Source: Bdellovibrio sp. (GTDB lineage Bacteria > Bdellovibrionota > Bdellovibrionia > Bdellovibrionales > Bdellovibrionaceae). From it: 64,000 nt of DNA. This document shows positions 16,939 through 18,505 of this stretch, one piece after another; within the stretch, counting starts at the first letter, position 1, and each line of letters starts with the position of its first letter. A program made the translations under genes and the position numbers. Below the pieces are notes generated by a model that had not been told where the DNA came from, ran no database searches, and worked only from the letters and a program-made list of their open reading frames with translations. The stretch spans positions 1 through 64,000 of the forward strand of contig JACMRL010000010.1 of assembly GCA_014376435.1 (NCBI GenBank), given 5' to 3'.

Positions 16939-18060
16939 ATGAAATTGTGTACCCAACTCTATTCAGCCGCTTTTGTTCTTTTTTTGACAAGTTGTTTCCC
17001 AAAAGAGAACAAAGTTGTGCAAGAAATCAAGCCAAACACTGTAATTGAAAACGTAATGATCGGTAAACCTGCTTCGGAAACTTCAAAAGTAGTTGCGTAT
17101 CTGACAAAAGAACAGCGCGAAGCTATTTATTTTGCCGCAAGCTTAGAGCGTGAAGCCTTAAAGTTAATTACTAAAAATAATTTCTACGATAAAGGAACAT
17201 TGTTTTCTGTGCTGAGTTATATTGTAGAAAGCGATGCAGGAAATAAAAAAATGTTTCCCGCAAATATGGATTGTTCACGTTTTCGAATCGAAAAAAAGAA
17301 TGCAGAATTATTTATTTATAAAACTTGTCAAAAGCCAGAAACTTTAGTTTTGAAAATTAAACAACAACTTGACGGCGCCGAACTGCAAGTTGAATTTATC
17401 GCCAGCGAATGGCCTTCCGTTTTAGGAACTTCGGTGGCTTTAACTAATTCAGACATCACTTGCCAATTACTGATTCGTGAAAAGCGTTTGCAATCCATGA
17501 ATTGTCAAAGTTGGTCGTATCTGGTTTCAGAAAATAATTTATCAGCCACGGAAATTAAGTTAAAAATATTTGCGTTTGAACGAAAAAATTCACTGCAGTT
17601 TCAGCTGAAAGGTGGTTTTTTTAAAGATCTAGTTGAAAATAAAAAAATTGCGATCATGATACCGATCGAAGGCCAAATTAAAGTCATCGGAAAAGAAATC
17701 GAAGTGATCGACGATTTTGCCGAAAAACCAAAAGTAGAATTAAAAGACGAACCCAAGAAATTAAAACCCTTCATCATAGGAGGCCCCGATGGCCAAAAAG
17801 AAAACAGTCAAGAAATCCGTAACCGCGAAGAAGCCAGCAAAGAAAGCGCTAAAGAAAAGCGCGAAAAAAACGACGAAGAAGGCCGCGCGCATTACCAAAA
17901 CGAAAGTCGCGAAGAAATCGAACGTAAACAAAACGAACAAAAAGCCGCCGAGCAAAAAATCCACGACGAAGAAATCCGTCAAAGTATCCAAAGCGACGAA
18001 ACAAACGGCGGTGTCCCCAAAAGCGACGGCGTTCCTGAAACCAAGAATCGAAGTCGGTAA
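16939..18060 (+). CDS. Putative lipoprotein, unknown function; C-terminal ~90 codons overlap the next CDS
   Basis: Lipobox LTSC; continuous ORF. The C-terminal charged low-complexity part lies in the overlap. Confidence 0.7.
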   Translation: MKLCTQLYSAAFVLFLTSCFPKENKVVQEIKPNTVIENVMIGKPASETSKVVAYLTKEQREAIYFAASLEREALKLITKNNFYDKGTLFSVLSYIVESDAGNKKMFPANMDCSRFRIEKKNAELFIYKTCQKPETLVLKIKQQLDGAELQVEFIASEWPSVLGTSVALTNSDITCQLLIREKRLQSMNCQSWSYLVSENNLSATEIKLKIFAFERKNSLQFQLKGGFFKDLVENKKIAIMIPIEGQIKVIGKEIEVIDDFAEKPKVELKDEPKKLKPFIIGGPDGQKENSQEIRNREEASKESAKEKREKNDEEGRAHYQNESREEIERKQNEQKAAEQKIHDEEIRQSIQSDETNGGVPKSDGVPETKNRSR

Positions 18061-18505
18061 CCTAGTTCCCGATTTTACGCTTAAAAGCTCATCGGGTAAA
18101 GATGTCACTTTATCAGAGTTAGAAGGGCAAAAAGTGATTCTTTATTTTTACCCTAAGGATGATACTCCGGGATGTACGCTTGAAGGCCAAGAATTTAACA
18201 AACACTTAAAAGAGTTTGCCGCGGCAAATACGAAAGTCTTCGGTGTTTCACGTGATTCAGTTGCTTCGCACTGTAAATTTATTGATAAGTATGGATACCA
18301 ATTCGAATTATTGAGTGATTCAGAAGAAATGCTTTGCCAATTATTCGACGTGATTAAAGAAAAAAATATGTACGGAAAAACAGTGATGGGCCTCGAGCGT
18401 AGTACATTTGTGATCAATGAAAATGGTAGCCTGATTGGTGAATTCAGAAAAATCAAAGCTGAAGGTCATGCTGAACAAATGTTGCAATTCGTAAAAAGTA
18501 ATTAA
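17789..18505 (+). CDS. Peroxiredoxin (Bcp/PrxQ family) with Lys-rich histone-H1-like N-terminal extension
   Basis: Core: GNLVPDFTLKSSSGKDVTLSELEGQKVILYFYPKDDTPGCTLEGQEF. AGGAGG SD at 17778-17783 precedes the ATG at 17789. Tail MAKKKTVKKSVTAKKPAKKALKKSAKK... Confidence 0.9.
   Translation: MAKKKTVKKSVTAKKPAKKALKKSAKKTTKKAARITKTKVAKKSNVNKTNKKPPSKKSTTKKSVKVSKATKQTAVSPKATAFLKPRIEVGNLVPDFTLKSSSGKDVTLSELEGQKVILYFYPKDDTPGCTLEGQEFNKHLKEFAAANTKVFGVSRDSVASHCKFIDKYGYQFELLSDSEEMLCQLFDVIKEKNMYGKTVMGLERSTFVINENGSLIGEFRKIKAEGHAEQMLQFVKSN

Follow-up and report, generated by a model that had tools for sequence, protein, structure and literature searches.

A peroxiredoxin gene in the window (the 64,000-nt stretch of Bdellovibrio sp. 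contig JACMRL010000010.1 analysed here) has its ATG some 850 nt into the lipoprotein gene that precedes it and opens with a long lysine-rich extension. This raises the question of whether the extension is a real part of the enzyme and, if so, how one stretch of DNA could serve two proteins. The interval flagged in the first-pass annotation as the tail of a peroxiredoxin (17789-18060) is exactly the overlap with a second ORF on the same strand (16939-18060), which that annotation overlooked. Our reading, to which we assign a probability of roughly 0.7, is that a PrxQ peroxidase with a basic disordered tail is translated from its own Shine-Dalgarno (SD) sequence and ATG, and that the same 272 nt are read in another frame as the hydrophilic, disordered tail of the lipoprotein (Table 1).

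Table 1. Positions in the window of the features of the lipoprotein-PrxQ locus
Feature	Position	Strand	Evidence or remarks
Lipoprotein gene, 373 aa	16939..18060	+	Signal peptide (lipobox LTSC), a globular domain with Cys ending near residue 255, then the tail
SD sequence AGGAGG of PrxQ, within the lipoprotein gene	17778..17783	+	Sequence; 5 nt before the ATG
Putative dual-coded overlap, 272 nt	17789..18060	+	Read as the Lys-rich tail for Prx and as an E/Q/N/K/R-rich C-terminal tail for the lipoprotein
Lys-rich N-terminal tail of PrxQ, 86 aa	17789..18046	+	31 Lys, no Asp/Glu, predicted disordered
PrxQ/Bcp peroxidase core	18047..18505	+	Pfam match, alignments, fold match
Lipoprotein stop TAA	18058..18060	+	Made out of frame by Gly-Asn (GGT AAC) of Prx, at the start of the core
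Codon of peroxidatic Cys129	18173-18175	+	Core
Codon of candidate resolving Cys162	18272-18274	+	Core
Codon of conserved Cys183	18335-18337	+	Core

The peroxidase core

The ATG-initiated ORF at 17789-18505 (+) encodes a PrxQ/Bcp peroxiredoxin of 238 aa. Residues 89-215 match AhpC-TSA (Pfam PF00578; 126.8 bits, cut-off 26), and the TPGCT loop of the core contains Cys129, which is invariant across 24 aligned relatives. The core is thus intact, as first annotated. It is ordered in the AlphaFold model, and the top matches of a Foldseek search with the predicted model are all of the Bcp/PrxQ type, Burkholderia and other Bcp structures matching with a TM of 0.94. In NCBIfam the protein stays below the equivalog cut-offs (NF053650, 131.9 of 260 bits; NF006960, 125.9 of 140); the best families there are of the right subfamily, though under the curated naming thresholds. 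Judged by domain and fold, the predicted product is a genuine PrxQ-type thiol peroxidase. Bdellovibrio sp. LF-bin-127 (JACMNA010000006.1) is the nearest named relative.

Many Bcp proteins have their resolving Cys at Cp+5. The window PrxQ lacks a Cys at this position and has one at Cp+33 and another at Cp+54. A candidate resolving Cys lies at Cp+36 to +40 in many relatives, and at Cp+33 in the window PrxQ.

The lysine-rich tail and its start site

A recount of residues 1-86 gave 31 Lys, 2 Arg, no Asp and no Glu, identical to the Lys and Asp/Glu counts of the first-pass annotation. This tail is without structure in the AlphaFold model (pLDDT about 47-61). The AGGAGG had already been taken as support for the start, a claim strengthened by the relatives: L008 has the identical hexamer in the identical place, most of the other overlapping loci carry an SD-like site ahead of the ATG, and there is no SD-bearing start near the core, the sole other in-frame start before it being a GTG 11 aa upstream. 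The conserved SD and ATG, together with a core that has no usable start, support the view that the Lys tail is part of the PrxQ protein. Nor is the tail a chance feature, as the same genome has other Lys-rich tails and most relatives retain one.

A search of the window genome with the Prx tail protein as query returned only the self-match, while a DNA pattern search of that genome for KKxxKKxxKK recovered the other Lys-rich proteins. The genome has a second GroES/Cpn10 with a 97-aa N-terminal Lys-rich tail containing 38 Lys (L113 / L098, C36:21789-22358), alongside a normal GroES (C16:133506-133787). Similar Lys-tailed GroES proteins occur in most genomes of the order examined. Lys tails are not peculiar to peroxidases, being found on the second GroES and on other proteins too. 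Literature searches turned up no Lys-rich peroxiredoxin, and no such GroES, in Bdellovibrio.

Other lysine-rich ORFs differ in architecture. L088 (C10, about 98.9 kb, minus strand) encodes a protein of about 190 aa that is rich in Lys in its N-terminal half and in Asp/Glu in its C-terminal half. L090 (C13, about 45 kb) has a Lys-rich N-terminal tail, followed by an acidic stretch and then a Cys/His-containing domain (CRVRDCDQVSNVEGYCRYHY). L091 (C16:177594) is a tiny ORF, MAKKKAKKATKKAAKKTTKKATKKKKK, which may be a free peptide rich in Lys or else a frameshifted tail.

The lipoprotein gene and the overlap

Homologues of the lipoprotein lie directly upstream of PrxQ at about 28 other loci of the family, and the gene pair is kept across the family. 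The C-terminal tail of the window lipoprotein is 118 aa long, hydrophilic and of low complexity, and ends in RSR*. Nearly all homologues have a long low-complexity tail, and most of these tails finish in Arg (GR, SR, RR or TR), whether overlapping or not. Four Cys residues are conserved, C109, C172 and C186 being invariant and C127 almost so (numbering of the first row of alignment A1). The AlphaFold model of the lipoprotein has a pLDDT of 86.6; the protein has no Pfam match, and comparison of its domain with PDB folds gave nothing credible (best E 0.02, TM 0.09). We set aside as unlikely a contact between the two tails, acidic in the lipoprotein and basic in Prx, since the lipoprotein is exported and the peroxiredoxin has no signal peptide.

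The third codon position of Prx is the first of the lipoprotein. In 15 genomes from five genera a Lys tail lies over an E/Q/N-rich lipoprotein tail by 128-305 nt, always in this phase. The set comprises 11 of the 13 window-genus genomes in which the pair was found, plus L012, L017, L031 and L034. As expected of a genuine overlap, both genes are conserved, the overlap is kept in orthologues and the start signal lies inside the upstream gene. In L034 (1498-1620) a 15-nt tandem repeat reads KKAPA in the Prx frame and STSEE in the lipoprotein frame, and its expansion elongates both tails together.

Selection on the two frames

In a forward test the Prx tail protein was held fixed, synonymous codons were redrawn by the usage of the species and stops in the lipoprotein frame were counted; usage was drawn from about 400 codons per locus, and several of the genomes compared are drafts. 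Between 2.5 and 12.9 stops were expected, and in all overlaps none was observed ahead of the gene's own stop. The probability of finding none is <=0.001 in most overlaps and <=0.045 in all, values which apply genome by genome and are not to be multiplied, the species not being independent. T is the last base of only 1% of the codons in the window Prx tail, over which the lipoprotein frame contains 0 stops. The controls differ: in four other Lys-rich stretches of the window genome 19-33% of codons end in T and stops in this phase number 7-16, and the Lys tails of GroES in the genus have 19-30% and 5-15 stops, with 7 stops against 7.2 expected for a GroES Lys tail.

In the reverse test the lipoprotein tail protein was fixed, codons were redrawn and Lys residues in the Prx frame were counted. 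Lys exceeded expectation in 14 of the 15 overlaps (P 0.027 or less), L017 being the one without significance, and in 1 of 10 control lipoprotein tails without overlap. Given the lipoprotein tail, Asp and Glu in the Prx frame are mostly below expectation. The Prx frame is frequently open by chance (P 0.06-0.91), and therefore its openness alone is not evidence. On the basis of these two-way simulations and their negative controls, both frames look selected within the overlap.

Substitutions in the overlap are spread over the three codon positions (0.31/0.44/0.35 for L011-L013; 0.50/0.49/0.48 for L016-L033), at about the rate of third positions in the Prx core. In the flanking lipoprotein body and Prx core, unlike the overlap, third-position substitutions dominate. 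The even spread fits two weak constraints, but it also fits a weak constraint on either frame, and substitution rates by codon position did not separate the frames. Permutation of synonymous codons confined to the tail was uninformative where T-ending codons were already missing. Both tails appear to drift in sequence while retaining their composition.

Distribution and evolutionary history

PrxQ starts were picked by SD score, with correction by hand for L010, L029 and L036. The orthologue was read in 50 genomes of the order, and in 32 of them PrxQ has a tail with at least 8 Lys, which answers an objection anticipated in the first-pass annotation, namely that the tail might be missing from all orthologues. 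Tailless PrxQ proteins occur in several genera, L015 and L018 (genus g6), L019, L021, L025, L036 and L075 among them, and in 2 of the 13 from the genus to which the window belongs. Because tailless orthologues are common, the Lys tail is dispensable over evolution and not essential to the enzyme. In other genera PrxQ has Lys tails of 12-31 Lys without any lipoprotein overlap.

The core tree requires 11 or more changes in tail state and 7 or more in overlap state. The overlapping genes as one clade, that is, a single origin without loss, were rejected by an AU test on this tree (p 0.008), indicating that the overlap arrangement has been gained or lost repeatedly; the test does not separate repeated gain from repeated loss of an older overlap. 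The motif AEPE(Y/F)I is found in lipoprotein tails that are overlapped (L016, L033) and in others that are not (L020, L025). Its occurrence with and without overlap suggests that in this lineage the lipoprotein frame came first.

Alternative explanations

Perhaps only one frame is real: Prx might begin at the core, leaving the tail untranslated, or the lipoprotein might end earlier, its extension being accidental. This is the usual verdict on long co-directional overlaps, since in the 338-genome survey of Palleja et al. none of the 715 annotated examples >60 bp was accepted and the longest real overlap was 56 bp (PMC2478687). Here, however, the SD and ATG are conserved and no alternative SD-bearing Prx start lies near the core, which argues against a shorter peroxiredoxin, while the lack of lipoprotein-frame stops (0 against 2.5-13 expected), and the like length and Arg end of non-overlapping lipoprotein tails, argue against a shorter lipoprotein. 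We regard the one-frame explanation as very improbable. The overlap could also be real and the Lys functionless, if an upstream shift of the Prx start had carried it into an E/Q-rich lipoprotein tail whose other frame happens to read Lys-rich. Given the lipoprotein tail alone, that frame is in many cases open, as the P values above indicate, and already fairly rich in Lys, with 7-24 expected. Such a by-product accounts poorly for Lys above expectation in 14/15 overlaps versus 1/10 controls, for the mostly reduced Asp/Glu and for the PrxQ tails of other genera, with 12-31 Lys and no lipoprotein beneath them; lipoprotein tails without overlap give just 2-9 expected Lys. We therefore consider it unlikely.

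A different question is what the tail binds. It probably binds polyanions (DNA, RNA, polyphosphate), and the tethering of PrxQ to the nucleoid proposed in the first-pass annotation is plausible; the composition equally suits polyphosphate, RNA or another polyanion. AlgP is the closest example to have been studied: fragments of its Lys-rich disordered tail bind DNA in vitro, and this tail is required for polyphosphate granule spacing (PMC9239181). Polyphosphate granules, RNA/ribosomes or an anionic membrane, rather than DNA, may be where the Prx tail acts, as one case of a general Lys-tail device of the order. In favour of this are the second GroES with a Lys-rich N-terminal tail in the same genomes, the other Lys-rich proteins of the window genome and the localisation of AlgP, with its DNA-binding tail, to polyphosphate granules (PMC9239181), but the same facts are compatible with DNA binding; we consider a non-DNA target a serious possibility with rather less than an even chance. 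Since Lys-tailed GroES is found across the order, a general localisation device describes the tail better than a DNA shield specific to the peroxidase.

Under our preferred reading, in which both frames are translated, the overlap would be tolerated because the constraint on each tail lies chiefly in its composition, the one needing many Lys and the other having to stay open and hydrophilic, and because the code links the two compositions: with A/G-rich codons, Lys in one frame becomes Glu, Gln, Lys, Asn or Arg in the other. The Prx tail would attach the peroxidase by its charge to a cytoplasmic polyanion, be it nucleoid DNA, RNA or polyphosphate, and so put peroxide removal beside it, and the lipoprotein tail would be a flexible linker, periplasmic or at the surface. 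These roles are inferred, whereas the tail, the overlap, its recurrence in five genera and the selection on both frames are what sequence analysis, the source of all the evidence, shows. More tentatively, and at just short of even odds, we speculate that in relatives of Bdellovibrio both disordered tails have repeatedly been overprinted on the same strand through this purine-rich dual-composition code, and that the Lys tail is a general polyanion tether which GroES and other proteins of the order have as well.

Comparison with known systems

The closest comparison for the enzyme is PrxQ/Bcp of Xanthomonas campestris (PDB 3gkk, 5iiz), with a core about 50% identical and of the same fold (TM to target 0.81-0.89), a TPGCT active site, no Cys at Cp+5 and one Cys in the helix-3 segment. 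It differs in having no Lys tail and in the position of its Cys84, at Cp+36 rather than at Cp+33 as in the window candidate. Yeast Dot5 (PDB 2a4v) is also a Bcp-type thiol peroxidase and is nuclear (core match E 1.7e-11), but it is eukaryotic and the comparison is a lead only.

The tail was first described as histone H1/AlgP-like, and this stands for composition, not homology: like the tails of AlgP, PhaF and histone H1 (PMC9239181), it is Lys-rich and disordered, with close-set Lys among Ala, Thr, Ser and Pro and hardly any acidic residues. The likeness does not extend to the KPAA-type repeats, which are absent, the Lys spacing being KKxx(x)KK; the Prx tail also differs in sitting N-terminally on an enzyme and in being, on our reading, dual-coded.

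If true, our reading contradicts the opinion that genuine long co-directional overlaps are not retained in bacteria, through one gene pair in 15 genomes with two-way statistics and matched internal controls. The pair would offer a natural laboratory for dual coding, in species with and without the overlap and with repeated gains or losses, and would show how low-complexity tails can be overprinted. It also points to little-described Lys-tailed enzymes and chaperones among the relatives of predatory bacteria. Later work has accepted long overlapping genes in bacteria (PMC8665328), and the present case shares with known same-strand overlaps two conserved genes in different frames. It is unlike them in its 128-305 nt, its five genera, its two low-complexity tails and its repeated gain or loss. 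Long overlapping genes being already known, what sets this one apart as a distinct variant is its length, how many genomes have it, its two-tail logic and its recurrence.
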